Under the pieces are notes generated by a model, which searched no databases, was not told the origin of the DNA, and saw only the letters and a program-made list of their open reading frames with translations. A stretch of 64,000 nucleotides of DNA from contig NZ_SDMK01000002.1 in assembly GCF_004123295.1 (NCBI RefSeq), forward strand, positions 496,001 to 560,000. The letters run 5' to 3'. Positions 13,084 through 58,547 of the stretch are shown here, in pieces. A program made the translations under genes and the position numbers. This DNA comes from Silvibacterium dinghuense. Its GTDB lineage: Bacteria > Acidobacteriota > Terriglobia > Terriglobales > Acidobacteriaceae. Position 1 is the first letter of the stretch. The number at the start of each line of letters is the position of its first letter.

Positions 13084-13094
13084 AAGGTCTGCCG

Positions 13095-14312: not shown

Positions 14313-14335
14313 CGAGGAAAGGACATTCCCCAGGC

Positions 14336-17300: not shown

Positions 17301-17482
17301 TGATGACCTCGCTTGCAACTCTGATCGGTCTTCTGCCTATGGCGCTCAAGCTGGGTGAAGGGAGTGAGGCCTATGCCCCGCTCGCGCAGGCGCTCATCGG
17401 TGGACTCGCCATTTCCGTGCTGCTCACAATCTTCCTCGTGCCCGCAGGCTTCTATCTCGCCTACCGCAACAGGAGCGCCTGA
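14336..17482 (+). CDS. RND efflux pump, inner-membrane permease subunit
   Basis: The 1048-residue protein has the standard RND layout: N-terminal helix (NPYLIVVLGLIIAILGIVSVSEMPVDMFP), a large periplasmic loop, six helices, a second loop, and six helices ending near LVPAGFYLAYRNR. Length and motifs (PPQQIETNITYHLE, GTDPDADAAS) fit the AcrB-like superfamily. In helix 4 the proton-relay segment reads RLIDNSVVVLENI, with one Asp followed by Asn rather than the Asp-Asp pair of AcrB. It uses proton motive force to drive substrates outward through the adaptor and channel. Drug or metal substrate cannot be decided from sequence alone. Confidence 0.95.
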   Translation: MSGFSIRNPYLIVVLGLIIAILGIVSVSEMPVDMFPPINLPVVAVATFYSGMPPQQIETNITYHLERQFTLASGIDHIESRSLPGVSLIKVYFLSGTDPDADAASISSLAMSDLRDMPPGTYPPIILKQDASSVPVALVPLTGAGLSQSKLKDIGQNYVRNQLASVPGASVPQPFGGTWRQIQLFADPYKLEANQLSLMDVVRAVNDANVILPAGDAQIGRYDYDLYTNSMLKGPDDIAQVPIKTVGQSPVRVGDVAVPQDAYSRQYNIVRVDGQHAVYVPVFKGGSDANTIAIVDGVRAKLKALYDVPASLRTAVVFDQARFVRTAIETLLHEGGVGLFLTCLMILLFLGSLRATVAVFFSIPLSLLATFIVLHFTGSSVNSMVLGGLALALSRLIDNSVVVLENIFRHLEGGEAPAVAAEKGGREVALPVLAGTLTTVVVFFPVTMLYGVSRFLFSALALAVVISLFASYFVAMTVVPLFCARFIHSPHQSGEHATESGAVQEAGGKLSVWERFNAAFSRGFDTLLARYDVAVGKVLAIPGKTLAVCGIVFALSLLLFPLLGLSFFPRTDAGQFVINFKAPSGTRLDDTDAEAAHVEQIIRSIVGKHDLGMIISNLGVDPGFSALYSSNSATHTGFIQVALSPDHRVSSFAYIERVQHALATQMPELQTFFSSGSLVDGVLNMGAPAPIDIRITGNDMSADNDTAHKIAAAVRRIPNVAEVYIPQDLDYPSLRIAIDRTRASELGLTEKEVVSNVITALTSNQMIAPSIWIDPKSGNNYFLTVMYRENQVQSLDDLKAIPLHGAGITRPTRLDMVADIQQFQAPTEMDHTQIRRVMDIYVRPQSEDLGRITKSIQGILKHEQPPQGVDVNLAGSVNSMNESFRSFAIGLTLSVLLLYLILVAQFRSFLDPFIILLALPPGITGVLLALVLWGTTLNVMSLMGVVMLAGIVLTNSILIVEFAHHLMKEGLAVREAIVTSCRVRLRPILMTSLATLIGLLPMALKLGEGSEAYAPLAQALIGGLAISVLLTIFLVPAGFYLAYRNRSA

Positions 17483-17634: not shown

Positions 17635-20385
17635 ATGGCTGCGAATCGTCGTGAATTCCTGCTCGGAGCTGCGACCTTGGCAGCCAGTACTTCCCTTCCA
17701 TCTGAACTATGGGCTGCCAATCCCAACAAACTGAACACTCCTGGAGCAGACGTCCATACCTCTTCTCCGTTCCTGCTCGAGTTCGATGAAGGCGCAGTGA
17801 CGAGTCTCCGTTTTGCCGGTGATGCTTTTCCTACCAACTATGTGGCTACAGGACAGAAACTTGGTCATGTCGAAATTGCCTGGCGACACCCCAATAGTGC
17901 CTGGCAAAAACTTCGCACTGCGGAATCGACTCCGAGTCATGATTCTCCCGCCACATATCTGGCTCAAGATGAACGTGGTCATGCGCTCGAAATAGCCGTT
18001 CGCCTGGCGCCTGAGCGCGAGATACTCCGATGGACGATTGCAGTACGCAATCTTTCCCCGGAAACAATCGAGATCGGCGATGTGGCTCTACCGCTGCCGA
18101 TGCACTCCAGCTTCAATGGCAAAGAGCCTCAAACCGCTTCTGTCCTGAAACACAGCTTTATCTCCGGACATGGCTCATTCCTGTTCTGGATGCGATCGAA
18201 CAGCGTCGGCCCCTATCTGGTAATGACCCCGGAGCATGGCACCTCTTTGGAATACTGGGACCACCTTCCGCCGGCAACCAAAGGAGAGCGCCCCGCATTT
18301 CGCGCTTACATCCACTCCACGGCCGTGAACGAAACAGTACAGGCGGTAGGCGGCCGATGGCGTCAGCCGCGAACGAGCACTACGCTTGCCCCAGCCGGCA
18401 AAGCAGGATCCGAGCACACCTATGCCTTCCAGTTCGCCTGGGCACTTGATTATGCGGGCGTGCGACAACGGCTGGTGGAGGCAGGCGGCATCGATGTCGA
18501 AATCGCGCCTGGCATGACAGTTCCCTCCGATCTGTTCACCTGTCTTGCCGTCCGGTCGCAGGACTCCATCACACACATTGCCGCCGAACACATCGAACAG
18601 ACAATGATTGAACCACTCGGCGAGCGAAACGGATATACGTTCTATCGTGTGAAATTCAATCGGCTTGGCGAAAACATGCTGACCGTGCACCACGGTGTAA
18701 ATCGCACGACACGGCTGGAGTTCTTTGCCTCCGAACCACTTGAGACGCTGATTCACAAACGCGCCGCATTCATCGCCAGGCATCAAGTTCGCGACACAAG
18801 CAAGTGGTATAACGGTCTGCTTGGAGAGTGGAATATGGATTCTCAAGTACAGCTCGGACCGGATAACTATGACCGCATCAAAGGGTGGCGTATTTATGAG
18901 GTGACCTGCGACGATCCAGGACTCAGCAAGCCGGCCTATCTTGCAAGCAAGAATGCAGAATTTCCTGACCAGTCCGAAGTAGAAGCGCTGGACTACTACA
19001 TAGAACACTTTGTATGGGGCGGTCTGCAGCGCACCACAGAGGAGACCGACAGTTACGGCATATACGGCATCCCCGACTGGAAGCAGAATCGCGACAGCAG
19101 TGATCCCGGCAGCAAAGGCAGGCGTCATATCTGGCGAGCCTATGACTACCCGCATATCGTAGTCATGTATTTCAGTATGTATCGCATTGCCCGCGACTAC
19201 CCCGGAATCAACATGAAGCTGGCCCCGGAGACATACCTCGAACGGGCATATGGCACCGCACTTGGAATGTTTATCATCCCCATGCGCGTCGTCGGCTGGT
19301 CCGCTTATGAGACCGGCTTCTATAACGAAATAGTCATCCCGCAACTCATCGAAGAACTGGATAAAACAGGCAAACATGATCAGGCGACACAACTGCGCAT
19401 GCACTGGGAGAAAAAGGTCGCCTACTTTGTGAGCGGCAATACGAACCTGTTCGGGTCGGAATATGCGTTCGACTCTACTGGCTTCGAATCGACGCAGGCA
19501 CTTGCACGTTACGCACTCGATCACCCGGCAACTCCGGGAATCACTCCGGAAGCAACCGCGAAGTTCGCCGCGACACAGATACGCGCCAATCTATTCTGCC
19601 GCGGCATGATTGAAAAAGCGTATTACTACTACGGCAGCGACTACCGTGCCGGCGCAGGCGATTCCTTCACCCTCAGCTATATGTCACCCATGGGCGGATG
19701 GGGCGTGCTGAATCACGCGCTTTACGATGGCCATGAACCCGATGCCACGATTCGTCTTGGATTCGCCTCTTATCTCAGCTCATGGTCCCTCATGAACACA
19801 GGCACACGAGAGAGCGGATGCGGATACTGGTTTCCCGGCGAGGCAAACGATGGCGGAACAGGAGGCGGTTTCGAGCCGGCAGCATATGGCATGACGTGGC
19901 TTGGACAACCCCACCATCGCGGCCCCTGGTATTACTCTTCCGAAACAGATCTGGGCTACTGTGGAGCACTGCGGTCGTCGGCGACGATCGTTGCCGATGA
20001 CCCTGTCTTTGGACGCTTTTGCTTCGGTGGTGAGATGAAAACCGGGAAGGCATCCTTGCTCATCGTTCCACGCGATGGCGTAAGAAGGCGTCTCCACCTG
20101 CGTATATCGGGGCAGAAAATCGATCTCGAACTCACAGGTGCACGATTCGCAAAGGAAGAGCCTATTCATTGGTTTGCCGATCAGCAGAAATTTCTCTTCA
20201 TGCTGGAATCTGAAACGATAAGCAGCGGGAAAGCACAGCTTCTAATCAAAGGCCTGCCTGTACATAGTTACAAAATCAGATATGGCTCAGAAACGCATGA
20301 ACTTCAATGTAATGAAAAGAACCTATTTGAGCTGAGCATTCCCGCTGGAAGCTCAAAGGTGCAAATAGAAATCACCTCGATCTGA
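17635..20385 (+). CDS. Tat-exported large protein (DUF5695-like), probable carbohydrate-active enzyme
   Basis: The 916-residue protein has a GAGG 8 bases before its ATG and a twin-arginine signal (ANRREFLLGAATLAAS). A beta-sandwich N-terminal part (about 50-330) is followed by a helix-rich central part (about 380-760) with many aromatic and acidic residues (TGFYNEIVIPQLIEELDKTG; GYWFPGEANDGGTGGGFEPA), then a beta-rich tail. The order resembles glycoside hydrolases with an (alpha/alpha)6 barrel flanked by beta domains. The likeness to the DUF5695 family is from memory and unverified. An 18-bp inverted repeat just upstream suggests its own regulator. The substrate is unknown. Confidence 0.65.
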   Translation: MAANRREFLLGAATLAASTSLPSELWAANPNKLNTPGADVHTSSPFLLEFDEGAVTSLRFAGDAFPTNYVATGQKLGHVEIAWRHPNSAWQKLRTAESTPSHDSPATYLAQDERGHALEIAVRLAPEREILRWTIAVRNLSPETIEIGDVALPLPMHSSFNGKEPQTASVLKHSFISGHGSFLFWMRSNSVGPYLVMTPEHGTSLEYWDHLPPATKGERPAFRAYIHSTAVNETVQAVGGRWRQPRTSTTLAPAGKAGSEHTYAFQFAWALDYAGVRQRLVEAGGIDVEIAPGMTVPSDLFTCLAVRSQDSITHIAAEHIEQTMIEPLGERNGYTFYRVKFNRLGENMLTVHHGVNRTTRLEFFASEPLETLIHKRAAFIARHQVRDTSKWYNGLLGEWNMDSQVQLGPDNYDRIKGWRIYEVTCDDPGLSKPAYLASKNAEFPDQSEVEALDYYIEHFVWGGLQRTTEETDSYGIYGIPDWKQNRDSSDPGSKGRRHIWRAYDYPHIVVMYFSMYRIARDYPGINMKLAPETYLERAYGTALGMFIIPMRVVGWSAYETGFYNEIVIPQLIEELDKTGKHDQATQLRMHWEKKVAYFVSGNTNLFGSEYAFDSTGFESTQALARYALDHPATPGITPEATAKFAATQIRANLFCRGMIEKAYYYYGSDYRAGAGDSFTLSYMSPMGGWGVLNHALYDGHEPDATIRLGFASYLSSWSLMNTGTRESGCGYWFPGEANDGGTGGGFEPAAYGMTWLGQPHHRGPWYYSSETDLGYCGALRSSATIVADDPVFGRFCFGGEMKTGKASLLIVPRDGVRRRLHLRISGQKIDLELTGARFAKEEPIHWFADQQKFLFMLESETISSGKAQLLIKGLPVHSYKIRYGSETHELQCNEKNLFELSIPAGSSKVQIEITSI

Positions 20386-20972
20386 CATCGATTAGCTTGT
20401 CATCGGTGTAAGAAATGTAAACACCCGTTCCGTATGGAACTTATCCTCCGTCAGAATGCAATTGACAATGCCTTTTTCATCGTGCACTATCATGCGCACT
20501 CATTGAGAAGGCACGGTCAACGCCGCACACTGCGGAAGGTTTCGACAAGCCGCTCCCATGCTCTGCTTGCAACTCCCGCCGCTCTGTCTCGTATTGAGAG
20601 AAACGGTGTTTTGGCCGGGCTTTTAGTCGTCATCGGTGGAGCATCTCCGCAGCTCACTCCTCTGCATAATGGAACCCACGGCAGGCAAGTAAGGAGCCCA
20701 ATCGCATCAGTGCCTGAAGTGCCATGAGGTTGCAAGGCATCGTCGCAGATTCTGCAGCTTCACTCAGGCGGTCGCTCGTCTCGTTCCCTCTCTTCAGCGA
20801 CCGGTCATCGCCTCAGGCATCATTCCCGAACCAGTTTCGTGCCATGCAGGCTCTCGACAAGCTGCGTTTACGCAGTCCGAGCTGTCCGCACACGCGGTGA
20901 AACGCGATACCAGCGTTGCGCCGGTATGGATCTATCTGCTCATTCAGCAGGCGAAGCGACAGGAGGAAAACT
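20386..20972 (+). other. 587-bp non-coding stretch upstream of the giant-protein genes
   Basis: No convincing gene was found. An open frame at 20434-20727 (97 codons) has no ribosome-binding site, no domain likeness and an unusual Arg/Ser/His composition. A TTGACA at 20462-20467 and TATCAT at 20488-20493 could be promoter elements, but their 20-bp spacing is long. The stretch ends with AGGAGG at 20961-20966 serving the GTG at 20973. It may hold a long untranslated leader of the downstream genes. Confidence 0.4.
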
Positions 20973-23900
20973 GTGGGAACTGTCGTCCTAGGATTACAAG
21001 GCGGAATCGCCAGCGGCTCAGAAACCACTTTTGATGGGCAGCCCATGCAGCCGGGCATCCATTTGCGATGGAGCTTTCAGCCGGAATTAGGCTTTCCGCC
21101 CGGCGGTTTCTGGCTTTGCCGCCGTGCCACGACAACGAAGGATCGAACGGCGTTCGCTCCTCCGGCTGCATACGCGACTCTGGTGAATCAGGCCACAGCT
21201 GTCACCGTCCCGGTGACAGCCGTGCCGGGAACCGATCAGTTTGAGGCTGTTGCTCCTACGCCGTGCAGCAGCGTGATGCTCGCCGGTTGCTCGGCTGAGG
21301 ATTGTGACGAAATTCTGATCGAGACCTTTTGTCAGAATTCCGACGGCAAACTGGAGGAAACCAGCCGGCAAGTCGTACGAGTCCGGCCAGGAGCATTTCG
21401 CATCAGTATCGCAGCGCGCGAAATCTCCTGCGTTCGTGTCACCGGCGCCAGCAGCATGGAGGAATGTGGTTGCAGTGTAGAGCCTCCTGCCTATTGTGGA
21501 TGCGGCAGTGGGAGCACGACCGGCGGCGGCACGAATCCACCGAACAACGGACAACCGGTGTGGGGCAACCCTGGCAAGGATGGATGGCAATGCTGGGGCG
21601 TGCCTTTCACCCTGCCCATCACCAATACAAACTGGCCTGCACGCTACTATGGTGCACCAGACCCACAGACCACACCCGACTCGACCGTCGCCGTGCAGGA
21701 TGTGAAAGAAGCGCTGCGCCGCCTCGGCACACTGAAGCTGGCAGCATCGCTCTCCACAGCGCAACAGCATGCAGAACTCGACAAGCTTCGCGCCGAGCTC
21801 AAACGCCTCGTCGAAGGCTTTCCCAGCACACTTCTTCCCGATGTGCCGCTTGAGTCTTCGCCGGCTGGAGCCAATGCACCTGACTTGAACCTGTCTCTCA
21901 TGCAGGAACTGCTGTTGTTGGCTCTCGATCCTTATTTTGCCCGCGTTCTCGGCCTCTATTTTGTCGACGACCAGATCGCTCCCGGCGTCAGCTACGACTA
22001 TTTCCTGATCGGCTTCTGGGGATCTACGCCCTGCCAGGATCTGACACTCTACCCTGGCCTCGCGCCTGGCGCGCCGTTAGCCCTCGGACAGGCGCAGTTC
22101 GATGGCATGAGTATCCAGACAGCAAACGGCAATACCTCGCTCTGGCGTTGGCTGCGCGATGACAGCAGTGGCAACTACGATCCGCAGACCGATCCCAGCG
22201 CGCCCACCGCCATCGCGCCCGCGCTGAACACGGCGCTGGGCAGCCTCACCGCATCACAGCAGCCCGAAGCCATGCTCGCGCTCTATTCGCCTGTCAGCAA
22301 TCTCTGGTTTCCCACGGCTGCGCCGGCTGTCAGCATCGCACTGCCGCAAACCTATATGCAGGTAGACGCGCAGGTCGCAGGCCAGGGCACGGTCACCGCG
22401 CTCTCGAATGGAACTTCCGTCGCCTCCGCCAGCTTCCACAACACCACGCTGGCCTCGGTCACCGTTACGGCAGCCAGCGCATCCGCTCCCATCGATACCA
22501 TCCAGATTAGCGGCGTCACACAGAACGTCACCTCCGGCATTGTTGTTGCGGTTGGATCACTGACACTCCACCCGCTTTCGCCCGACACCATCGGCATCCG
22601 CTTCGCTCTCCTCGGTCCACCCTCCGCTATTTCTCCGATTGCTGCACCAGGACAGCCAGCGTGCAGCTTTGTACGCCGCCAGGCTGACGTCGATCCCTCC
22701 ACTCTCGCTCTCGTTCCGCACAGCATGTTCAACCTGGAATGGCCTGCGCCTGCGGCCACGGCTGCGCAAACTACCGGCAATCCCATGACCGATCCGCTTG
22801 ACCTGCCTCCGCCCGATCGTCCGATCGGCTTTGTCGCCGAACGTCAGGACAGCGGGAAGTCCTCAAGTCTCACGCGCCTCGGGAAATGGATCTCCGTCGC
22901 CAGCTCACCGACACCGGCAACCTCCAAAATCACGACACCACGTCTTTATCGGTATCTCGACACCGGCGTGCCCGATCCACTGGGCAGCTACAGCTATCGG
23001 GTTGCAGGATTCGATCTCTTCGGTGCCGTCGGTAACTGGTCTGCCTGGACTACACCGATCGGCGTTGAAAGAGTCGCTGCCGCACCTACCAATCTCCGCA
23101 TTATCCAGTTCAACAACACAACCGCAGGAGGCGGCGCGCCCGATGCGGCGGGCGATGCATGGGTGGGCGGAACCCTCCTCTATCAGGTCAACTGGTCAGG
23201 AGCCTCTTTTGTCCTCTATCCAGACATTGAGACTGCTCAGGCCACCGTGCAATCGGTCGATCTCGCTACGGGCGCGCCGACCGGTGTTCTCACGACTCAG
23301 AACTTCACTCTTCCGCAGCGCATCGCCACCCAACTCACAGTCACTGCGATCAATGTCACTCCGGCGCCCATCGGAGCAGGCAATATCGTCACCATACAAA
23401 CCAACCCTGCGCTGCCCTCGCTGCAACCGACCGATCCTGCAGCCATGCTGATCCTCACGCTCCCCGACGGGACAATCGAACGCTACGTGACCCGTCCCGC
23501 CGCCGTCACCTCGGGCGGAGCGGTGGTAGCCACGGTTCAGGCCGGATCGAGTGCGCGCATCGTCTCCACGTCCGGCGATTTTATCGGGCAGACCGCATAT
23601 CTCATCTCTGGTTACAGCGTGCAACCCACGTTGTCTGTGCCACTCAGTATTCCCATGGCACAAAACACGGCTCGCGGACAGATTTCCATCCAGGGATCGA
23701 CAAAGAATCCCTTCGACGGCAGCGAGCAGGTCGTCGATCCGAATGGCGTCAATCCGAATCAACCGGAGCCAACCTCCGTCACCCTTCGCTTCACCGGCGC
23801 GCAACGCCTGGTTCCGCCTGCTCCGCCCACGCCCACCCATTCCGTCGATCACGTGTACTACAACCCTGCGGATTACACCGGCATGGCAAGCGCCACGCTG

Positions 23901-25193
23901 CCTTTCAGCCTGAGCGGCGGAGCAGGCATCTACGGCTATATCCTGCAACGCGCTCCGGTTCGCTCCATCCAGCTCGCTGATGTAACGCGACGGATCGCTC
24001 TCAACAACGCGGCCGACCCCAATCCCATCGTGCCTGACGGCGGAGCTGCGCAGCGCCCCGACCTCGCCGCCTGGATCAACGATCTGACCCAGTGGCTCTC
24101 CTGTTACAACGCCCAGGCCGGCACGTCGTGGACCATGGCCAATCTTCTGTCCGACTCGAACGCACAGCGGGAATTCATCGAGCATTTCTATGGAGGGCTG
24201 CTCGATGACGAGCTGCGCGCTCTGGCAGATATCTCGCAAAATGCTCCCGGCTACGCGCGCGTGAACTCTTCGCCTTATACCTCCAGCACTCCCATGTCCG
24301 ACAGCGTCAACGGCACGGGCTACGGCCGCAACGTCTACCGGATGACCACCGTCAACTCCGCGGGCACAGTCAGCGGCGCTACCGGAACCATCGGTCCTTA
24401 TTACACCCGCGTGGTGACACCGCCGCGTCCACCGGTGCTCTACAAGCTGCAGCCCACGCAGTCATCCATCCTTGTTGCCTGGGCGCTCGATACCAACCCT
24501 GATATCGCGGCGTATCTTGTCTACCGGTCCGCCAGCGTCGATCAGCTCGCCGACCTGCGCTACTTCGGCCCGAATCCTGCCTACCCTCTGAGCCCCTCGG
24601 CTCTCGCGCAGGTGGCCTACAATCCGCAGTCGTCGCCCTCTGTCTCCTTTGGAGCAGGACAGGTCGATCCCCGCATCATCGCGCTCGTTCCCGATCCGCG
24701 CCTGTGCGCGCGCGATTACCAGGGCAGCGACATGGCAGAGATCACACTGCCCTCCGGTTCTGCACCGGACAGCATCAACGGTATCTACCGTCTCGATCAG
24801 TACAGCGCCGCACTGGGGCCGCTCCATCAGATCGCCTTCAACTACTGGACGCCGCCTTCTACCGGCGGCATCGCCCAGATCGTCGCCAGCAATCCGCCCT
24901 ATGTACGCCTGACCGGCTTGCGCATCGGCCTTGGACGCGGCATCCCCGTAGTCGTCGTCGCGACCTACCAGGGCCAGGTTAAAGTCTTCGGTCAGGTTCC
25001 GGTGCGTCGCGCCGGATTCACCGACGGTGTGCTCTCCACGGGTACGCCTGTCGATTCCAATACGCTCCAAGGCGCGCCGCCGCCGAGCGTCAACGTTCCC
25101 AACGCCTATGCCATCGTCAGCGTGGATATCTTCGGGAATCTCTCTTTACCGTCCACGATCTTTGCAGCGCAGATGTTGGCCATTGCTTCATAA
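20973..25193 (+). CDS. Giant multidomain protein (1406 aa) with fibronectin-III-like segments, unknown function
   Basis: The frame is open from 20916, but the GTG at 20973 follows a perfect AGGAGG with 6 bases of spacing and is taken as the start. There is no signal peptide or membrane helix. Residues about 97-175 form a Cys-rich segment (nine Cys, including EECGCS and YCGCGS) followed by a Gly/Thr/Asn linker. A helical stretch follows (about 230-330), then a long beta-rich part. At least two segments look like fibronectin type III folds (SYSYRVAGFDLFGAVGNWSAW; SSILVAWALDTNPDIAAYLVYRS). This architecture suits a structural or adhesive protein, but no family was recognised. It is followed 32 bp later by the small helical gene. 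Confidence 0.8.
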   Translation: MGTVVLGLQGGIASGSETTFDGQPMQPGIHLRWSFQPELGFPPGGFWLCRRATTTKDRTAFAPPAAYATLVNQATAVTVPVTAVPGTDQFEAVAPTPCSSVMLAGCSAEDCDEILIETFCQNSDGKLEETSRQVVRVRPGAFRISIAAREISCVRVTGASSMEECGCSVEPPAYCGCGSGSTTGGGTNPPNNGQPVWGNPGKDGWQCWGVPFTLPITNTNWPARYYGAPDPQTTPDSTVAVQDVKEALRRLGTLKLAASLSTAQQHAELDKLRAELKRLVEGFPSTLLPDVPLESSPAGANAPDLNLSLMQELLLLALDPYFARVLGLYFVDDQIAPGVSYDYFLIGFWGSTPCQDLTLYPGLAPGAPLALGQAQFDGMSIQTANGNTSLWRWLRDDSSGNYDPQTDPSAPTAIAPALNTALGSLTASQQPEAMLALYSPVSNLWFPTAAPAVSIALPQTYMQVDAQVAGQGTVTALSNGTSVASASFHNTTLASVTVTAASASAPIDTIQISGVTQNVTSGIVVAVGSLTLHPLSPDTIGIRFALLGPPSAISPIAAPGQPACSFVRRQADVDPSTLALVPHSMFNLEWPAPAATAAQTTGNPMTDPLDLPPPDRPIGFVAERQDSGKSSSLTRLGKWISVASSPTPATSKITTPRLYRYLDTGVPDPLGSYSYRVAGFDLFGAVGNWSAWTTPIGVERVAAAPTNLRIIQFNNTTAGGGAPDAAGDAWVGGTLLYQVNWSGASFVLYPDIETAQATVQSVDLATGAPTGVLTTQNFTLPQRIATQLTVTAINVTPAPIGAGNIVTIQTNPALPSLQPTDPAAMLILTLPDGTIERYVTRPAAVTSGGAVVATVQAGSSARIVSTSGDFIGQTAYLISGYSVQPTLSVPLSIPMAQNTARGQISIQGSTKNPFDGSEQVVDPNGVNPNQPEPTSVTLRFTGAQRLVPPAPPTPTHSVDHVYYNPADYTGMASATLPFSLSGGAGIYGYILQRAPVRSIQLADVTRRIALNNAADPNPIVPDGGAAQRPDLAAWINDLTQWLSCYNAQAGTSWTMANLLSDSNAQREFIEHFYGGLLDDELRALADISQNAPGYARVNSSPYTSSTPMSDSVNGTGYGRNVYRMTTVNSAGTVSGATGTIGPYYTRVVTPPRPPVLYKLQPTQSSILVAWALDTNPDIAAYLVYRSASVDQLADLRYFGPNPAYPLSPSALAQVAYNPQSSPSVSFGAGQVDPRIIALVPDPRLCARDYQGSDMAEITLPSGSAPDSINGIYRLDQYSAALGPLHQIAFNYWTPPSTGGIAQIVASNPPYVRLTGLRIGLGRGIPVVVVATYQGQVKVFGQVPVRRAGFTDGVLSTGTPVDSNTLQGAPPPSVNVPNAYAIVSVDIFGNLSLPSTIFAAQMLAIAS

Positions 25194-25225
25194 AACCCCA
25201 TTCCATCCGGGAAAGGACAGCATTC

Positions 25226-25756
25226 ATGGGCACCCCTGCAACGACACCTCCTGATCCAATTGCGCCGGTCGTCACAGCGCTCTCGTTTCTCGTCACTCCA
25301 AACCCCTCAACGATCAGCTCCGGCGATACGCCCAGCACCTGGGAAGGCTCCAGCGCCACCGATGGCTCGCTCTACAGCGTTCTCCAGCCACTGCTGAATA
25401 CATTGTTCAGCATCTCCTCGCTGCAATCCGTGGGCTCCTCGGTAAACACCGCGCTCACCGATGTCGCGAAGGTCATCTCCACCATCGCCGATAAGCTGGC
25501 GTCTCTCGAGGGCAGCCTGCCCGCGGGCACCAGCGCAACAGACGTCATGAACGGCCTGCAATCCGCGCTATCGATGGCCAGTACCCTGCTGCCCTCCAGC
25601 GCCGGCTCGGCGGCCGGCTCCGCGCTCAACTCCGCCAGTCAGCTGTTCACCACCATCCAGAATCTGATTCAAGCCGTCGGAGGAGATCTGACCCAGGCCG
25701 CCAATGAGCTGGCGCAGCTGTCACAGCAGATTACGGCGCTCGCCGCGCTCTTTTAG
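25226..25756 (+). CDS. Small helical Ala/Ser/Leu-rich protein of unknown function
   Basis: The 176-residue protein starts at an ATG with GGGAAAGGA about 8 bases upstream. After a Pro/Ser-rich N-terminal 45 residues, it is predicted to be nearly all helix with heptad-like spacing (SSVNTALTDVAKVISTIADKL; LTQAANELAQLSQQI). There is no signal peptide, no Cys and no recognised family. It lies between two giant genes, 32 bp after one and 118 bp before the next, suggesting that it is made with them and may be a partner, chaperone or assembly protein. That role is inference from position only. Confidence 0.75.
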   Translation: MGTPATTPPDPIAPVVTALSFLVTPNPSTISSGDTPSTWEGSSATDGSLYSVLQPLLNTLFSISSLQSVGSSVNTALTDVAKVISTIADKLASLEGSLPAGTSATDVMNGLQSALSMASTLLPSSAGSAAGSALNSASQLFTTIQNLIQAVGGDLTQAANELAQLSQQITALAALF

Positions 25757-25874
25757 GGCGGCAGGCGCACCATTCATGGTCAAGACGGCATTCCGCGTGT
25801 CTTGCGGGATTCCGTCATAGCGATCGCGTCGAACACCCGTCAGCCCAGCGGCCGGCGGGAATAAAGGAACCGTC

Positions 25875-28800
25875 ATGGCGTCATCTGCGTCCATCGTTTC
25901 GCTTCTCGAATCCCTCGGCGTTCCCATCCTGCAGGAAGTGGCGGATGCCGCTCTCGGCCAGGGCGTACTCACCCTCTCTGACGACGCCTCGGGGCTCACC
26001 GTTGGCGTGACACTGAGCAGCGGCCAGAGCCTCCATGCCGACGATGTGACCTTCATGGGCTCACAGGGCTTCTCAGGTCATTTTTATGTCGACGGGCTCG
26101 ATGCAAATCCGCTCTCCGCTACATTGGCCGGCGGCTTTGCCATTGCCCTCACCGCGTTCGATGTGACCATTGCGAATGGAGGCATGGCCGCCAGCACCAT
26201 CGGAGGAGCGCTGACCATCCCCTTCTTCACCGATGAAAATGGCAACCCCGAAACGCTGGATGTCGAAGTGAGCACGAAGCAGGACGGCTCCCTCTGCATT
26301 ACGCTCGCCGCCACCACCTCTTCACCGACGACTCCTGACGGTCTGGTGCAGCTTGTCTATAACCTCCCTGGCGGCCTCGGCAGTGTCGAAATCGATGTCG
26401 CCTCGATAGAGTTCGATGAGTCCGCCGGCACCTGGACCATCATCATTTCAGGCAACCTGATCATTACCGTACCAGGGCTCAATTGGCCCAGCATCGAGCT
26501 GCGCGGACTCGGCATCGACAGCAAGGGAAACATCTCCCTCCAGGGTGGATGGATCAATCTACCCAACCAGATGGCGCTCGATTTCTACGGCTTCAGCATC
26601 GCGCTGCAGGCTCTCGGCTTCGGCAGCGACGCCAGTGGCAAATGGATCGGTTTCAACGGCGATATCAATCTCGTGGAAGGGCTCTCCCTTGGCGGCTCTG
26701 TGCAGGGATTGAAAGTCAATCTCACCACGGGCTCGATCTCCTTCAACGGCGTCGGCATCTCCTTTGAAATTCCCGGCGTCATCACCATCGACGGCGAAAT
26801 CGATCACATCCACGTCGATGCCAACACGCCCAACGATCTTGTGCCCTACGGGCTGATGCCGTCGATCTTCAACTCCATCGCCCCGGTCGGGCCCACCGGC
26901 CCCAAGAGCATCGATCTCTTCGCCGGCTCCGTAAAAGTGCAGGTGCTGCCTGACGAAATGGATCTCGAAGTCGATGCCAACTTCATCGTGGGCAATTTCG
27001 GCGGGCAATCCGTCTTCTTTCTCGCGCTCGATGTCGAGCTTCCCGTCGGCATCCCGATCTTCATGGATGTCTCGCTCTACGGCCTCTCCGGCCTCGTCGC
27101 GACGGGTCTCGATCCCGACCCCGAGCCAAACGACACGTGGTGGCAGTGGTACAAGTACCCAGCCGGAACCAGCGGACCACAGCTCAATGCCACGCCTGAC
27201 TACAGCGCAACGGACTTCACCAAGTGGCTCGTCCCACAGCAAGGCGCCTTCGCTATCGGTGGCGGCTGCACCATCGGCACCAGCGCCGACGACGGGTACA
27301 CCGTCTCCGCGGCCATTATGCTGGTCATCCTCATGCCCGGCCCGGTCATCTCCCTCATCGGGAAAGCGAATATTTTGTCGAAGCGCATCAGCGGCGCGGA
27401 CCAGGATGCGAACTTCGAAGCCATGGCCACCTATGACGGTAATTCCGGCACCTTCGATCTCACCATCGACGCGCAGTACTCGATCCCCGTCGTGCTCGAC
27501 ATCGAAGCGACCGCGGAGCTCTATGTCGACGCCACTGCCGGTGAGTGGTTTTTTGCCATGGGCAAGCCACCACACACACAGCGCGTCTCGGCACGCATCT
27601 TCGATATCTTCGAGACGGACGCCTATTTTGTCGTCAGCAATGCCGGCCTCATCACCGGCACCTGGACCGGTTATCAGGGCTCATGGAGCTTCGGTCCGCT
27701 CTCCGCCAGCCTCGATGCCTATCTTGCCACGCTGGCGGCCATTCAATGGTCGCCACTGCAGATCGCCGGCGGCATCGAGCTGCATGGAAGCGTGCAGCTC
27801 AGCGCCTTCGGCATCGGTGTCGGCATCTCCGCCGACGCGCTGCTCGAAGGCTGCGCGCCCAATCCCTTCTGGGTGCATGGCGAGCTCTCTGTAGAGCTCG
27901 ATCTCCCCTGGCCTCTGCCCAATGTCGGTGGCACCATCTCCCTGTCGTGGGGCGGCGACGACGGCTCCATACCGCCTGTCCCACTGGCGCTCAGCCACAT
28001 CGACGCGGCGCTCTCCGATCATGGCGACTCTGCCGGCAAGCCGGCAAGCGATCACTACGTGCTGCTGGCCCACCGTAGCAACGGCCCCTTCCCCGATCTC
28101 ACCGTGCAGTACGACAATCCCCAGGCGCCAGGCATCCTCGATCTCACCGGAACCGCGCTGACCAACTGGCAGAATCGTGTCAGCTCCGGCAATCTCGCCG
28201 ACATGCTCCCGGACATGACGCCCGACAACACCAGCAGAACACAGATGGCCCCCGTCCTGCCGCAGGACACGCACTTCGTCCTCAACTTCTCTCATCCTGT
28301 CGTCGATATGAGCGGCGGTTTCAACAATGCGCTGCCCCAGGCGCAGCTTCCACCCGAAGTCGTGACCACCCCGCCTCCTCCGCCCCCAACCGAAGTAGGC
28401 AAAGACGACATGTCGAATATCAACCCGAATCCTCCCTCGGTCCAGTTCCTCATCCGCCACTCGCTGATCGACGTCAGCCTATACGAGTGGGTCGGCGGCG
28501 CGTGGAGCCTCGTCGCCTCCATTCCTCCGGTGCCTCCCACAGAAGCCAGCGCGCAAGCCGACACTACCTACCTGAGCGGCGTGTGGCTCGCGCCAACGAG
28601 TGCCACGCAAATTCAGCTCAAAGTCGTTCCCTGGATGATGGTCGAAGGAGAATTCTGGACAGTATCCTGGAGCAGCACCTCCACGCCCCAGAACTATGGC
28701 ACGTCGTTCAACAATCAGGGCCTCGACTTTCAAACCACCAACACCCAGCCTGCAGCGATCGGAACAGGAAACGCCCCGGGCCTGCAGCAAGGGCTCGCCT

Positions 28801-30944
28801 TCACCAACGCCGGAGGCTCACAGCAACCCTCTGTCGCCATCACCTTTCCGCAGCCAGAGGTGCTCTCCTCGCTCACCGCCGTCGTCGCCGTGGACGAAGG
28901 CGAACTCCTCTACGCCTACAACGCGCCCACCTGCGTCGGCGACGGTGTCACCCTGACACCAACAGCCCAGTCGTGGGACTCCAACTTCATGCAGTGGACC
29001 CTCACCTTCGATCCCGAAGCCACGCCTATCTCCACGCTCACATTGAGCATGCAGAATACCTCCGGTGCCACGCTCGTCCTCTACGCGCTCGATTACACTG
29101 TCCCCCCCACAGCCATGGCTATCCTTCCCAAAGCACCCGCAACCTATGCACTGCGCGTCACCACAAAGATTGAAGCGGCCCGCGTGAACGGCGGCACACC
29201 GCAGTATCAGACCGCGCCTGATGGTTCTCCCATCGTCGAATTCGCCTATTTCCAGACTGCCTGCGGACCAGGTATCGCAGAGATCGGCGCGTCCATTCCC
29301 AATACTTCCGGTCTGCCCAGCACCCCCACCAACACCACACCTGTGCCTGCCGAAGCTGCGAACTTCCCGCAACTGGCCGTCAACTGCAGCACCATGCAGC
29401 AGCCTTTCACTTCATTCCCTCTGGGCGGCGCCATCGACGACCTCACTACCTACACGCAATGGTCCTGGCCGTTGAACGGCGCTGTAACCGCCTATTACGG
29501 ATACGATGTGAATGTCGAGTTCTGCGAGAGCTATGTCAACGCGTTATACGTAGCCGCCGGAGGTCGCGGCATCGCCAATTCCCTCCATTTCCGTTGTGTC
29601 GATCGCAACCAGAATCATCTGCTGCTCCAGACACTCGCAATCCACGTGCCTTCTATCCCCCAGCAATCCGCGCTTGTCGCCACTGCGCTCACCGTTCCAC
29701 TACCCAGTGTCATTCAGCCATCCGATCAGGACGGCCTGCTTACTCTCACCGGCGCGCAACTTGCCGGTCTCGAAAAGCGCGCGCTGGTGAAGATCGATTC
29801 CAACCTGCAGCCGGATACCGCGGCCTCCCTGCAAAACACTGCAATCACAAACGTGTCCCAGCTCACCGGTCCCGGTATTCAGCAGCTCAACCCAGGCATC
29901 ATCGGCATTATCCTCAAGGAGCGCCAGGAGCAGGAGGCCGCGGCGACGGCCCGCCAGTTGTGGTTCCAGCCGCTCGCGCCGCAGATGCAGTACACGCTGG
30001 ATGTTGTCGCCGGATCGTGGCTCGGCGCTACCAGTGACTTCTATCCTGCGGCCGGAGCTGGGACAGGCTCGCTCGAGGAGATCTTTTCCGCCTCCGATGC
30101 CATCAGCCTCCTCAAAGATCTCGAAAACTGGTACACAGCCCAGGCCGCGCTCACCACGCTCGAGCGGGTCACCTTCACCACCTCGCGCTATGCCACATTC
30201 AGCAGCCAGATGAGCAATGCCGCAGATCAGCTTGCCGGTGTAGCGGGTACAGCGCCGCTGCGTCACTACAACACTTCCGTCGATGTAAATACCTGGCTCG
30301 CCGATGCAGCCAACGGGTATTCGGCCTTCACCACCGCGCAAACCATCTACACGCAGCAGCGCGCAACGTTGGCCGGCGTTGTCGCACAGTTCGATCCCCG
30401 AGCCGATGATCTCGCACCCGGCGCGCCCTGGCCCGATAACGGCAACCATGCCCTCGTTACAGCACGAGAGGCGACATCACAAGCCTGGCAAGCACTCCAG
30501 CAGACCTCAGTCCCGGTCTTTGATGCGCTCATCGGTGCCCTGGGCCGAGCCGATCTTACCAGCACACAGAAGCCAGTGGCCGTCCCCGATACGGAGATGA
30601 CCCTCTTCCTCGACCCCACCGGATTCGACATCCGCGCCATTCTGCTCGAAAGTCCTGAAGCTCTCCCCTGGCAACGTATCTGGCAGTGGATTCAACTCAC
30701 ACCCATTTCTCCTTCTTCGCTCGGGCTCAAACAGATCGACGTGCTTTGGAATTCCGACAACACGCGCGGCCTCATTCTGCCGCTCGGCAGCCCGCGCGGG
30801 CGCTACACGCTCTCCATCACGTTCCAGGGGAACCTGGGCGCCGAAGCACCCTGCATCACGCTGAACGGACTTCCCGTCACCGAAGCCGCAACCATCGGCG
30901 TTCTCAGCCTTGGCGCAGTTATCCATAAGCCACGCAACCTATAA
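25875..30944 (+). CDS. Giant beta-rich repetitive protein (1689 aa), unknown function (DUF6603-like)
   Basis: The ATG has AAAGGAA 6 bases upstream. The first 800 residues are rich in short alternating strands in which Gly/Asp-turns recur (LRGLGIDSKGNISLQGGW; FNGDINLVEGLSLGGSV; VKVQVLPDEMDLEVDAN), as in large beta-solenoid or stacked-sheet proteins. The style recalls the family listed as DUF6603, from memory and unverified. A proline linker (about residues 830-840) then separates a second half containing mixed beta and helical segments with several Cys. There is no signal peptide, anchor or catalytic motif. It is the largest product in the window and the third gene of the same-strand set starting at 20973. 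Confidence 0.8.
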   Translation: MASSASIVSLLESLGVPILQEVADAALGQGVLTLSDDASGLTVGVTLSSGQSLHADDVTFMGSQGFSGHFYVDGLDANPLSATLAGGFAIALTAFDVTIANGGMAASTIGGALTIPFFTDENGNPETLDVEVSTKQDGSLCITLAATTSSPTTPDGLVQLVYNLPGGLGSVEIDVASIEFDESAGTWTIIISGNLIITVPGLNWPSIELRGLGIDSKGNISLQGGWINLPNQMALDFYGFSIALQALGFGSDASGKWIGFNGDINLVEGLSLGGSVQGLKVNLTTGSISFNGVGISFEIPGVITIDGEIDHIHVDANTPNDLVPYGLMPSIFNSIAPVGPTGPKSIDLFAGSVKVQVLPDEMDLEVDANFIVGNFGGQSVFFLALDVELPVGIPIFMDVSLYGLSGLVATGLDPDPEPNDTWWQWYKYPAGTSGPQLNATPDYSATDFTKWLVPQQGAFAIGGGCTIGTSADDGYTVSAAIMLVILMPGPVISLIGKANILSKRISGADQDANFEAMATYDGNSGTFDLTIDAQYSIPVVLDIEATAELYVDATAGEWFFAMGKPPHTQRVSARIFDIFETDAYFVVSNAGLITGTWTGYQGSWSFGPLSASLDAYLATLAAIQWSPLQIAGGIELHGSVQLSAFGIGVGISADALLEGCAPNPFWVHGELSVELDLPWPLPNVGGTISLSWGGDDGSIPPVPLALSHIDAALSDHGDSAGKPASDHYVLLAHRSNGPFPDLTVQYDNPQAPGILDLTGTALTNWQNRVSSGNLADMLPDMTPDNTSRTQMAPVLPQDTHFVLNFSHPVVDMSGGFNNALPQAQLPPEVVTTPPPPPPTEVGKDDMSNINPNPPSVQFLIRHSLIDVSLYEWVGGAWSLVASIPPVPPTEASAQADTTYLSGVWLAPTSATQIQLKVVPWMMVEGEFWTVSWSSTSTPQNYGTSFNNQGLDFQTTNTQPAAIGTGNAPGLQQGLAFTNAGGSQQPSVAITFPQPEVLSSLTAVVAVDEGELLYAYNAPTCVGDGVTLTPTAQSWDSNFMQWTLTFDPEATPISTLTLSMQNTSGATLVLYALDYTVPPTAMAILPKAPATYALRVTTKIEAARVNGGTPQYQTAPDGSPIVEFAYFQTACGPGIAEIGASIPNTSGLPSTPTNTTPVPAEAANFPQLAVNCSTMQQPFTSFPLGGAIDDLTTYTQWSWPLNGAVTAYYGYDVNVEFCESYVNALYVAAGGRGIANSLHFRCVDRNQNHLLLQTLAIHVPSIPQQSALVATALTVPLPSVIQPSDQDGLLTLTGAQLAGLEKRALVKIDSNLQPDTAASLQNTAITNVSQLTGPGIQQLNPGIIGIILKERQEQEAAATARQLWFQPLAPQMQYTLDVVAGSWLGATSDFYPAAGAGTGSLEEIFSASDAISLLKDLENWYTAQAALTTLERVTFTTSRYATFSSQMSNAADQLAGVAGTAPLRHYNTSVDVNTWLADAANGYSAFTTAQTIYTQQRATLAGVVAQFDPRADDLAPGAPWPDNGNHALVTAREATSQAWQALQQTSVPVFDALIGALGRADLTSTQKPVAVPDTEMTLFLDPTGFDIRAILLESPEALPWQRIWQWIQLTPISPSSLGLKQIDVLWNSDNTRGLILPLGSPRGRYTLSITFQGNLGAEAPCITLNGLPVTEAATIGVLSLGAVIHKPRNL

Positions 30945-31121: not shown

Positions 31122-33149
31122 GTGAAGAGCGCAACATCGCAGCGTCTTCCACGCCGCGCAATATTTCTGATGCTGTGCTTTTGCATGGGCCTTTTGCCCG
31201 GAGCACGTGCGGCAGCTCAAAGCCCAACTCCTTCTGAAATTCATTGGCCTGAAGCGAACCTTACTTGTACTCCCAATGGCAAAGTCTTCCGTTGCTCTTC
31301 CATGACAGATGGCAGCACCGTGTTTGATGATGTGGAGAGCTTCTCTGTACAAGGCAGTGTTGCGATCATCGATATCCACGGAAAATGGCGCATCATCGAT
31401 GCCAAAGGACACAATGTCCTCCCAGGCGAATACGACTTCATCTCTCATTTCGATAAAGATGGCCCTGCCCTTTTCCTCCTGGAATCCTGGGAAAAGAATA
31501 CCGAGACTGTCGAAGGAGTCTGCGATAGTTCAGGTCAAATACTGATTCCTGTGAAGTACCGGGAAGTTCACTATATCCCGGCTGCGCAGCGTTTCATCGT
31601 TACGCAAAACAATAAGGATTTCTTGTTCGATGCAAACGGCCACAATCTCATGGAGACTGGCTTCGACAGCATCTCAAAGCCTTTTGCCGGTGAAAAAAAC
31701 TCTCTCTGGGTTGTTCGCGAAGGACCGGAAGAAGGAGCCATCGCCCCCGCTACGGGCCACCTGCTGATTCCTCTCGGCAAGTGGTTACTCCAGAGTCGAG
31801 GGCCCTTTATCATTGCGGAACAAGATGATGCGCAAGGCGTATTTGACCATGATGGGAAGCCAATTCTTCCCATGGCTGAAGATCAGCAGATCTCCTGGTG
31901 GGAGGAAGGCCACCTGCTGATTGTGAACACTGGCAGCGGCGAAACCGATGATAGCTATGCCCTCAATGCCGATCTTCAGGAAGTGATTCCCCACCATCGC
32001 TACGCCGTCATGAAGCCCTATGGCAAGCGTCTTGCAATCTATAGCAACGAAAAGTGGGGACTGCTCTCACCACAATTAGCCGTGATAGTCGCGCCACAGT
32101 ACAGTGCCATCAACGAGCTTCATCAGAGTGACAACAGCCTCTTTCTTATCGATGTACCGAAGCAGGAGGGTGCGCATCAATATGGGGTGATCGATTCCAA
32201 CGGGAAGATCATCCTTTCTCCCGCATGGGAGAATATCAACCTCAAACTTCTTCCCGCGAATACCCCTGCAGCCGACGGGGACAAAAGAGCGGATGTGCCC
32301 GCCTACTATATCGTTTCGAAAGGACAGAGATTCGGACTCCTCTCCGCTACCGGAGACACGCTTCTCCCCACAGAGTTCGACAGCATCGAGTCTCTGGACG
32401 AGGATGATCCGAGACTGGTTGCCACGCGAAACAATCGCGCAGAGCTGGTTGATGGTCGAACAGGAAAGCAGATCCTGCCTCCCGATTACGAAGAGCTCAG
32501 TCTGCTGGATGGCTATAGCGATCTTTTTCTAGCGAAGAACAGCGGAAAATTAGGTGTCATTACCGCATCTAGAGAAACGCTCATTCCCTTCGCATACGAT
32601 GCGTTTGTGGATGGGGACTCTCTCGAACATACCCTGCTTCTTTCGCAACATGGGCAGACTCATCGATTTACGCTCATTCGCTCGAATGATCATTGGGCAA
32701 CGCGCAGCACTACTCAAGATGTGCTTGGCCTGCCATGCGACACAAACCCTGTCGTAAACATTACCCGTGCAAAAACCACGGAGTGCTATCTACCCAAGCC
32801 CTTCTCCCATGAACAACAGGTGCTGGACGGATCCCACAATGGGCTCCTGCGCGAAGCCACATGGCCGAGCCTGCTGCTCTCCCAAACGCAGGCATTCATC
32901 TTTTTAGGTGAATTCGCCACAGCCGAACTTCCATTACTCCCTAATACCTTACCGCTTTGCCGTGATACGAAAGGTTTCTCGATACTTCTAACCTCGAAAT
33001 CGAGCCAGGATGATCCGACGCTTTGCCAGAGCTCATCTCTGCATCGACTGACCTTTATCCGTACAACTCCGACGACTTTGCACTGTAACGAATGTTCCGA
33101 ACACAACATCCCCGACACCTGGATTCGCTACGATATGCAAGCGCACTAG
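31122..33149 (+). CDS. Secreted WG-repeat protein
   Basis: The 675-residue protein starts at GTG and has a Sec-type signal peptide (RAIFLMLCFCMGLLPGARAAAQ). The mature part consists of imperfect repeats of about 50-60 residues of the WG type, recognised by a Trp/Phe-Gly-Leu/Val-hydrophobic core followed by a turn and an Ile-Leu-Pro-x-x-Tyr/Phe-Asp segment (KWGLLSPQLAVIVAPQYSAI; RFGLLSATGDTLLPTEFDSI; KLGVITASRETLIPFAYDAF). Such repeats build beta-sheet surfaces, and their molecular role is mostly unknown. The C-terminal 150 residues are distinct, with five Cys. It lies 177 bp after the giant gene on the same strand; whether it is co-transcribed is uncertain. Confidence 0.85.
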   Translation: MKSATSQRLPRRAIFLMLCFCMGLLPGARAAAQSPTPSEIHWPEANLTCTPNGKVFRCSSMTDGSTVFDDVESFSVQGSVAIIDIHGKWRIIDAKGHNVLPGEYDFISHFDKDGPALFLLESWEKNTETVEGVCDSSGQILIPVKYREVHYIPAAQRFIVTQNNKDFLFDANGHNLMETGFDSISKPFAGEKNSLWVVREGPEEGAIAPATGHLLIPLGKWLLQSRGPFIIAEQDDAQGVFDHDGKPILPMAEDQQISWWEEGHLLIVNTGSGETDDSYALNADLQEVIPHHRYAVMKPYGKRLAIYSNEKWGLLSPQLAVIVAPQYSAINELHQSDNSLFLIDVPKQEGAHQYGVIDSNGKIILSPAWENINLKLLPANTPAADGDKRADVPAYYIVSKGQRFGLLSATGDTLLPTEFDSIESLDEDDPRLVATRNNRAELVDGRTGKQILPPDYEELSLLDGYSDLFLAKNSGKLGVITASRETLIPFAYDAFVDGDSLEHTLLLSQHGQTHRFTLIRSNDHWATRSTTQDVLGLPCDTNPVVNITRAKTTECYLPKPFSHEQQVLDGSHNGLLREATWPSLLLSQTQAFIFLGEFATAELPLLPNTLPLCRDTKGFSILLTSKSSQDDPTLCQSSSLHRLTFIRTTPTTLHCNECSEHNIPDTWIRYDMQAH

Positions 33150-33210: not shown

Positions 33211-33297
33211 CTCCTGTTAGCCGATGGAGTGAGTGCATCGTGTGCGCGCCCATAGCGTCGCCTTCGCAGATTGCTCATTTCCGGGGAGTTTTTCACT

Positions 33298-33933
33298 ATG
33301 TCGAGTGTCGGATTTACAACGAGTCTTTTGTCTCAGATCGTCAGCTCATCCTCTACGACCGATCAGTTTGTCACCGACCTGAATCAGCTGGCCGAGGATC
33401 TGCAGAGTGGCAATCTCAGCGCCGCAGAACAGGACTATGTCACTCTTTCTGACGATGCGTTGAATGGGACAACGTCATCGACAGCGACCAGCTCGGACAG
33501 TGGCATTACCGCCAGTCTGCTGTCGGACATTGCGTCCTCCTCCAGCAGTTCTACATCTTTCGTCGACGAGCTCAATCAGCTCGGGACAGACCTGCAGAGC
33601 GGGAATCTTACCTCGGCACAGGATGATTTCTTGGAACTCGATGCTACGGCATTGAACGCTGCATCCGCGGCTGGCACAAGCACCAGCACCAGTTCCTCTA
33701 CTACAGGCACCAGCACCTCTGCTTCGCAGGCAGAGAGTGAAGAGCTGATCAATGCAGCTGTCGAGGCAATGGAATTTGGAGACGATTCGCTGGCAGGAAG
33801 CTCGCTGTCTGAACTAGCCTCGCTTACATCCAGCTCTTCCGGCGCGAATATTCTCGAACAGGACAGCGAGAGCCTCGGCTCAAGCTCGAGCAGTGCCAGC
33901 AGTTCTAGCTCTACAGTGAGCCTGCTGGCATAA
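33298..33933 (+). CDS. Ser/Thr-rich protein with duplicated 48-residue helical module, unknown function
   Basis: The start chosen is the ATG at 33298, which has GGGGAG 9 bases upstream (211 residues). Two copies of a module are clear: LLSQIVSSSS...DLNQLAEDLQSGNLSAAEQDY and LLSDIASSSS...ELNQLGTDLQSGNLTSAQDDF. Each is Ser-rich and then helical with an Asp/Glu-Leu-Asn-Gln-Leu core. The LQSGNL-x-x-A-Q-x-D motif is one I recall from short proteins in proteobacteria and acidobacteria, function unknown. The remainder is low-complexity Ser/Thr/Ala with a helical stretch near residue 155. No signal peptide is obvious. A terminator-like hairpin upstream suggests separate transcription. Confidence 0.7.
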   Translation: MSSVGFTTSLLSQIVSSSSTTDQFVTDLNQLAEDLQSGNLSAAEQDYVTLSDDALNGTTSSTATSSDSGITASLLSDIASSSSSSTSFVDELNQLGTDLQSGNLTSAQDDFLELDATALNAASAAGTSTSTSSSTTGTSTSASQAESEELINAAVEAMEFGDDSLAGSSLSELASLTSSSSGANILEQDSESLGSSSSSASSSSSTVSLLA

Positions 33934-36138: not shown

Positions 36139-36145
36139 ATGCTCC

Positions 36146-38925: not shown

Positions 38926-38950
38926 CTCGTCTCGCTCCTTTGCTCTCCCG

Positions 38951-39445
38951 CTATCTGTCGCTCGCCTGCGTGCTCTCGAAGGCCCGGCATACTGCCTCGC
39001 GCAATCTCTCATCGAGTGGTTCCACTACGACGTCGAAGCACCCCAGCTCCAGTGCCTCCGACCATAGCCGGAAGTCTGCCTGCGGCGAATACACCAGAAT
39101 TGCGCAGTGCGGTTCGCCCGTCGCCAGTTCCCTCCACAACAGCCGCCAGTGCTCGTGCAGCAACGCTGCCGGTGCCAGCAGTACATCGAACGGGCAGCTC
39201 TGCCGGTTGATCCGCGCAATCTCGTCTGCGTCACGCAGGAACATCAGGTTTGCGACCACCGGCTCCAGGCAGCGGCTCACCTGCGGCTGCGCTCCTGCCG
39301 GAACCAGTGCAACGACTCTCGGCTTTGCCCTGCCCGTCACCACATCCGTCATCGCCCCCGTCACATTTCCAGCTCCGGTTGTCTGGATTTTGCGCTCTAT
39401 ACTGTCGTCTGGCAGCGTGAGCAGAGGTGATCTCACCGTGAGCAC
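38951..39445 (-). CDS. Degenerate receiver-like protein (pseudo-response regulator), no output domain
   Basis: A 164-residue (or shorter, from Met at 39352) protein ends 25 bp before the adaptor gene and runs in the same direction. The alternating strand/helix pattern fits a CheY-like receiver: PRVVALVPAG, FDVLLAPAALL, CAILVYSPQ, CFDVVVEPLDERL. The residue at the usual phospho-Asp position appears to be Ala (LLAPA), and the conserved Lys appears replaced by Glu (VEPLD), so phosphorylation is unlikely. It may act as a protein-binding regulator of the efflux operon. The start is uncertain (GTG at 39445 or ATG at 39352). Confidence 0.6.
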   Translation of the reverse strand: MLTVRSPLLTLPDDSIERKIQTTGAGNVTGAMTDVVTGRAKPRVVALVPAGAQPQVSRCLEPVVANLMFLRDADEIARINRQSCPFDVLLAPAALLHEHWRLLWRELATGEPHCAILVYSPQADFRLWSEALELGCFDVVVEPLDERLREAVCRAFESTQASDR

Positions 39446-55851: not shown

Positions 55852-55867
55852 GCAAACTCCAACCTCA

Positions 55868-55904
55868 ACGCGCGAATCCAACCAGGGTTCGCGCGTCTTT
55901 TCTT
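55868..55904 (+). terminator. Rho-independent terminator after the alcohol dehydrogenase
   Basis: A perfect 9-bp stem (ACGCGCGAA at 55868-55876 and TTCGCGCGT at 55888-55896) encloses an 11-base loop. It is followed by CTTTTCTT. The stop codon of the dehydrogenase lies 16 bases before. Confidence 0.75.
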
Positions 55905-56012
55905 GCCTAAACCTCTCTACAAAGCATTCGACCTCCGCTTCGATGTAGCATCCTTGCTTGCAGACGAATTCCCCCGCGGCACATTCTTACGGAGCCGCAG
56001 CCCGGAGATGCA

Positions 56013-57065: not shown

Positions 57066-57122
57066 CCCATAGCGCGACACAACCGTGCATCATGAAAGCA
57101 GCACAGTTGCGAAGGAGGACGG

Positions 57123-58478: not shown

Positions 58479-58547
58479 GCGGAAATCTGTTTGCGCTTTC
58501 GCTCTCCGATGCGAGGATAGGTCCATCCTGCTTGCAGAGGAAGTGCC

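Follow-up and report, generated by a model that had tools for sequence, protein, structure and literature searches.

Two giant proteins and an exchangeable middle gene in a conserved cassette of Silvibacterium dinghuense, including a divergent relative of the DUF6603 family

Two giant proteins with a small protein between them are encoded in the window, i.e. the 64,000-nt stretch of the Silvibacterium dinghuense genome analysed here (contig NZ_SDMK01000002.1, positions 496,001 to 560,000), and the trio was found again in seven further loci and in one decayed copy. The middle position proved to be exchangeable between lineages: it is occupied by a small helical protein here and by a protein with SGNH motifs or a PLD-like protein elsewhere. 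The larger giant is, at the level of profile comparison, a divergent DUF6603 protein. We tentatively propose that the three genes form one operon, which would specify a mobile accessory complex whose target is membrane or lipid and whose active subunit can be exchanged. Three 'hypothetical' genes of about 10 kb would then become a defined operon, with the clear prediction that the giants bind each other and that activity resides in the variable middle protein.

The initial annotation had described three same-strand genes encoding proteins of 1406 aa (giant 1), 176 aa (small protein) and 1689 aa (giant 2), with gaps of 32 nt between giant 1 and the small gene and 118 nt between the small gene and giant 2; all this was confirmed, and the genes lie on the plus strand (Table 1). 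An alternative TTG start of giant 1 at 20916 would give a protein of 1425 aa; however, the AGGAGG motif precedes the GTG. Homologues of the giants with 51-56% identity were found in the same order on five other contigs with small genes between them, and dN was far below dS in all three genes among close relatives, which indicates purifying selection (dN/dS of about 0.15 for giant 1, 0.21 for the small gene and 0.19 for giant 2 between loci L006 and L010). Given these same-order homologues and the low dN relative to dS, the three ORFs are real genes. The GC content of the cassette is 61.4% vs 58.2% in the whole window (the source genome has 5.1 Mb), and GC3 is 0.69-0.77 in the cassette vs 0.58 and 0.55 in the two directly adjoining genes. 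This composition is no proof of transfer, since the genes at 54799-63826 reach a similar GC3.

Table 1 Features of the cassette (coordinates within the window)
Feature	Coordinates	Strand	Basis or remark
Shine-Dalgarno-like AGGAGG	20961..20966	+	6 nt before GTG start of giant 1; read in sequence
Giant 1 (1406 aa)	20973..25193	+	GTG start; without Pfam, NCBIfam, PHROG or PADLOC family; homologues found
Giant 1 residues 29-51, HLRW...GFP..GF.L.R motif	21057..21125	+	Common to several DUF6603 partner proteins
Giant 1 residues about 411-533, sole confidently modelled stretch (beta)	22203..22571	+	pLDDT; CBM folds in Foldseek
Small amphipathic alpha-helical protein (176 aa)	25226..25756	+	Exchangeable middle position
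Giant 2 (1689 aa)	25875..30944	+	ORF and homologues
Giant 2 residues about 42-710, divergent DUF6603-like core	25998..28004	+	Strong beta-amphipathic pattern
Giant 2 residues 474-501, hydrophobic ...PGP... hairpin	27294..27377	+	Alignment, hydropathy

The gene order and the small gene are retained in all eight window-type loci (the window, L006-L010, L063 and L064), where the giants share a strand and are separated by one or two genes; giant 1 of L064 is cut by the contig end. L006-L010 came from a scan of genome contigs, and a family search added L063, L064 and the decayed L073, with a fragmented giant 1, a giant 2 without its central part and no match to a small gene. L006, L008, L009 and L010 are labelled Acidobacteria and L007 Dormiibacterota; giant 1 of L007 is 97% identical to that of L008, and L007 is probably mis-binned. 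L006 and L009 are almost identical (99.6-99.7% in the giants), and two tandem small genes are present in L006, L009 and L010. Outside the cassette, the loci compared (with L007 left out) have no flanking gene in common at a corresponding position; the window and L010 have two homologous genes in common (60% and 34% identical), at different distances. No empty site was found in the same-genus relatives. Adjacent giants with a gene between them also occur in G254 and G286, two genomes of a second Acidobacteriota family, and in two fetched Mycetohabitans records. Shared synteny had been set beforehand as the test for a 'candidate undescribed system', and its presence in the window-type loci, G254, G286 and Mycetohabitans bears this designation out. 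In L073 (6986-11905), the decayed copy adjoins a gene which by eye reads like an encapsulin gene.

The co-occurrence of the giants was assessed in 398 genomes of the family, searched once with each giant. Giant 2 matched 16 genomes and giant 1 matched eight, all within the 16. Both giants were at one place in seven of the eight: G000 (the genome of the window), G427, G493 and G511 (the genomes of L010, L006 and L009, respectively), G536, G625 and G561, the last with a remnant. The eighth, G610, has a marginal giant 1 match (E 9.5e-4) on another contig. Nine genomes matching giant 2 (G372, G374, G437, G443, G456, G546, G558, G610 and G613) were not assigned window-type status; they carry distant subtypes or weak matches, and their loci include other subtypes (L065-L069) and a canonical DUF6603 locus (L070). 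Neither giant model matched L071 or L072, and no match was found in any of eight other same-genus genomes (completeness 72-99, several incomplete). Among 297 genomes of the phylum, giant 2 was matched in four and giant 1 in five, with G000, G254 and G286 in common. The unshared matches were G283 for giant 2 and G001 and G113 for giant 1. G113 was not counted (its 718-aa giant 1 match has a signal-like start and lies beside a 2409-aa protein, itself a weak giant 2 match with E 9e-11), nor was G001, whose 392-aa match reads like a membrane-fusion protein. The weak giant 2 match of G283 (3.8e-6) lies beside an 869-aa protein carrying the N-terminal motif of giant 1, the motif model having been trained with this protein included. 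The trees of giant 1 and giant 2, in which Azospirillum forms a long branch, showed no supported conflict (3 and 5 of 8 inner branches were well supported), and the distances correlated at 0.99 over 55 non-independent pairs.

The middle gene differs between these lineages. In G254 and G286 the gene between the giants has GDS, GGND and DE-x-H blocks, which are motifs of SGNH hydrolases. The G254 protein has no Pfam match; the G286 gene consists of two overlapping frames matching the G254 protein in two parts (L019, 14598-17337), possibly as a result of a frameshift or a sequencing error. On the Mycetohabitans plasmids, the middle gene is annotated as PLD-like (two of the four matching records were fetched), and the M. 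rhizoxinica protein matched PLDc_2 (8.1e-17) and has two H-x-K motifs. With models built from six Acidobacteriota rows, giants 1 and 2 were matched at 1.1e-109 and 6.5e-264 in M. rhizoxinica, 3.5e-106 and 3.6e-273 in M. endofungorum and 9e-9 and 5e-68 in Azospirillum, E-values that were computed within a small ORF set. The Azospirillum order is giant 2, giant 1 and a 786-aa protein, and the third gene of the L065, L067 and L068 subtypes encodes an 800-aa protein of no family. The small proteins themselves are alpha-amphipathic (z 4.2-7.3 in all six tested) with 5-9 charged residues of 125.

No convincing family was found for the window proteins in Pfam, NCBIfam, PHROGs or PADLOC, nor did the giants have a convincing match among PDB sequences. 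Giant 2 matched no Pfam family at E up to 1 and did not reach the DUF6603 gathering score of 27 bits; G000 has no Pfam match to DUF6603 (PF20248) anywhere. When aligned by hhalign with four canonical DUF6603 members, however, the giant 2 core gave a probability of 97.7 (E 2e-12, 381 columns). The bridging protein L065 (2393 aa) scores 41.8 bits against the same Pfam cut-off, and the window-type profile was matched by the L065-L067 profile at 97.3 and by the L068-L069 profile at 98.1. In correction of the initial annotation, giant 2 has a named relative at the profile level. A 3-keto-disaccharide-hydrolase/ConA-like match was found in giant 2 of G254 (3.9e-12, over the cut-off) and of M. endofungorum (5.5e-5, under it).

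DUF6603 was seen in haloarchaea, Streptomyces, Nocardia, Rhizobium, Paenibacillus and Acidobacteriota. Eight of 11 canonical or related DUF6603 loci, from Acidobacteriota, Streptomyces, Nocardia, Rhizobium and the haloarchaeon Salinigranum, have partner families B and C, and five have D; the partner pair E and F recurs in two Acidobacteriota and Paenibacillus. None of these families matched giant 1 by profile comparison (probability 0.4 or less). A PhoD-like protein (4e-8) is encoded next to one canonical DUF6603 gene. As separate observations, canonical DUF6603 genes (L031, L032, L036-L041 and L070) lie in recurring giant-gene runs from the haloarchaeon to Streptomyces, the DUF6603 giant of L033 (4656-14750, ~3300 aa) contains by eye a lipase-like alpha/beta-hydrolase stretch in the middle of the protein, and L034 (5244-15095) encodes a similar giant.

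A motif like GIHLRW...GFPPGGFWLCR, found near the N-terminus of giant 1, was present in 12 of 248 ORFs of at least 400 aa, and all 12 are partners of DUF6603-like genes, including those in L033 and Paenibacillus L041; the pattern was fitted by eye after the proteins had been seen, on loci chosen for DUF6603 and with duplicate loci omitted. It misses G254, G286, G283, Azospirillum and L066-L069. The motif model alone matched L065 (2e-4) and L067 (3e-3), with nothing significant in L066, L068 or L069, and profile comparison of giant 1 with the L065-L069 partners was weak (probability 1-25). No Pfam fn3 domain was found in giant 1, in which an FN3-like pattern is seen by eye only. The AlphaFold model of its residues 1-1200 had a mean pLDDT of 40, with a well-modelled beta part reaching 62-88 in ten-residue means. 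Many carbohydrate-binding modules were retrieved by Foldseek with this model (probability near 1, weak E-values of about 0.001-0.007); Foldseek gave no ranges, and the bounds in Table 1 were inferred from pLDDT. The top matches, among them the lambda tail tip (E 6.7e-5, probability 0.25, TM 0.06), convicilin, PAPP-A and Cry proteins, were discarded because they were spread over the low-confidence model.

The DUF6603-like core of giant 2 has a beta-amphipathic z of 5.7, the highest of the 28 window ORFs of at least 300 aa (the next being 2.7), and z was 4.5-6.9 in all ten giant 2 rows, window included. Two canonical DUF6603 proteins gave 3.8 and 4.9, L065 7.1 and L068 5.5; the values of two controls, which by eye resemble TonB receptors, were 2.0 and 3.0. 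The giant 1 rows ranged over 0.6-4.4, with high values in G254 (4.4) and G286 (3.6). Hydropathy exceeds 1.6 in giant 2 at residues 82-100, 379-399 and 474-501 (peak 2.33), the last of which is a hairpin found in eight of nine aligned rows, and in giant 1 at residues 313-331 (1.66). The claim of the initial annotation that membrane segments are absent is therefore not safe. Its claim that signal peptides are absent agrees with simple hydropathy (best 19-residue mean within the first 40 residues, threshold 1.6), by which none of the three window proteins has a signal-peptide-like start (0.73 for giant 1 and 1.24 for the small protein), with the reservation that giant 2, at 1.51, is just under the threshold. 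The model of giant 2 residues 1-780 was unusable (mean pLDDT 32), and its Foldseek list, mostly porins, contained nothing with an E of 0.001 or less and was left unused. The AlphaFold models of both giants are too poor to demonstrate a groove or barrel. The initial annotation, which missed the exchange of the middle gene for hydrolase-like proteins, the DUF6603 link and the hydrophobic hairpin, was thus partly supported.

In the reading that we tentatively prefer, an accessory complex spread horizontally would work on membranes or lipids. The two giants would form a fixed chassis, giant 1 may provide recognition of sugar or surface, and a hydrophobic beta groove, barrel or hairpin of giant 2 may engage lipid. 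Activity would reside in the middle subunit, which may cleave lipid or polymer in some lineages; the small protein of the window might insert into or coat membrane or lipid. The complex could act within the producing cell, at the envelope of that cell or, once set free by lysis, on another cell. In favour of this reading are the retained order and small gene, the pairing of the giants, the hydrolase-like middle genes of relatives, the amphipathic patterns of giant 2 and the small proteins, and the PhoD-like protein encoded beside a canonical DUF6603 gene. A mobile accessory role fits because of the plasmid records, the sporadic presence and the decayed L073. Against the lipid reading stand the amphipathic score, which is not unique to giant 2, the third genes elsewhere that encode 800-aa and 786-aa proteins, the two overlapping frames of the G286 middle gene, the poor AlphaFold models and the lack of export signals by hydropathy; sugars, esters and nucleic acids are likewise substrates of SGNH and PLD folds. 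A broader generalization is possible though doubtful: DUF6603 proteins may represent a class of modular giant-protein machines of bacteria and archaea, spread by plasmids and combining a beta-groove giant and a recognition giant with interchangeable lipid- or membrane-active subunits, of which the window would be a divergent subtype with an amphipathic helical active part.

The giants might alternatively build a coat or fibre that lies outside the cell and carries sugar-binding modules, a surface matrix or adhesin which the third gene product trims or anchors. The weak CBM-like domain of giant 1 and the 3-keto-disaccharide-hydrolase/ConA-like matches in giant 2 of relatives point in this direction; we consider it unlikely in view of the lack of signal-like starts by hydropathy, of LPxTG or RTX GGxGxD repeats in both giants (none found) and of a secretion gene at a common place beside the operon in the compared loci. 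The same lack of export signals by hydropathy, together with the low-charge amphipathic helices of the small protein, would suit an intracellular scaffold or a complex on lipid or hydrophobic inclusions, coated by the small protein in the manner of a phasin or apolipoprotein. Such a function is improbable: the sporadic, partly plasmid-borne distribution is unusual for storage, and sugar-binding-like modules are mostly extracellular. A conflict system with a swapped effector, either a complex released against bacteria or eukaryotes or a defence against phages, would account for the exchangeable third gene, the sporadic spread and decay, and the toxin-antitoxin genes, transposases or recombinases surrounding the plasmid relatives. 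The weak match of the PLD-like protein of M. rhizoxinica to the DrmC models of PADLOC (1.9e-6) favours a conflict role as much as the lipid reading; this protein also weakly matches MkoB (6.9e-5). None of the three window proteins matched PADLOC, and we assign this possibility a low probability. A component of a contractile injection system or phage tail is highly improbable: the weak resemblance of the small protein to tape-measure PHROGs (best 3.7e-4) probably reflects composition and was disregarded; Baseplate_J, which represented the injection-system families in the search, was found in one of four genomes (G286, on another contig) and not in G000, G254 or G283; and no relatives were found in viral contigs or in phage records, the latter searched with giant 1 left out.

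The surroundings of the cassette are described here for completeness. Efflux-like genes (by eye) at 11743-17482 and 34741-39012 showed no tie to the giant operon. Just upstream of it, 17635-20385 encodes a DUF5695 protein (7e-52), the start of which looks twin-arginine-like by eye; homologues of this protein, 73% and 68% identical, occur in two of the eight other same-genus genomes, where the cassette does not adjoin them. Directly downstream, 31122-33149 encodes a WG-repeat protein (PF14903, 8e-20) found solely in G000 among nine same-genus genomes. It is followed at 33271-33933 by a Ser/Thr-rich protein of 220 aa in which, by eye, a repeat of roughly 50 residues occurs twice; this protein has no Pfam family over the cut-off.

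No described system of the DUF6603 kind was found, although giant 2 has a named family: in the literature searched, from which subscription journals were mostly absent, no paper named DUF6603, PF20248 or IPR046538 or joined Mycetohabitans with phospholipase D. Bridge-like lipid transfer and AsmA-TamB proteins are large and have amphipathic beta strands, the bridge-like ones with a repeating beta-groove fold and a hydrophobic interior; giant 2, with its high amphipathic-beta periodicity score, may be comparable to them. To DUF6603 (Pfam PF20248), a family of unknown function, the giant 2 core aligns at the profile level, and both DUF6603 members and giant 2 are encoded in runs of very large genes, whereas the partners encoded at canonical loci are different ones (from families B, C, D or E, F). 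The tie between DUF6603 and recurring giant-gene runs offers an entry point to the function of these costly proteins. In the Mycetohabitans plasmid operon both giants have homologues, arranged as in the window: a hypothetical protein of 1322 aa, a PLD-like protein and a giant annotated as DUF6603 in M. endofungorum. It differs from the window in having the PLD-like gene in place of that for the small helical protein and in the greater length of giant 2, which has 2337 and 2496 aa vs 1689 aa.
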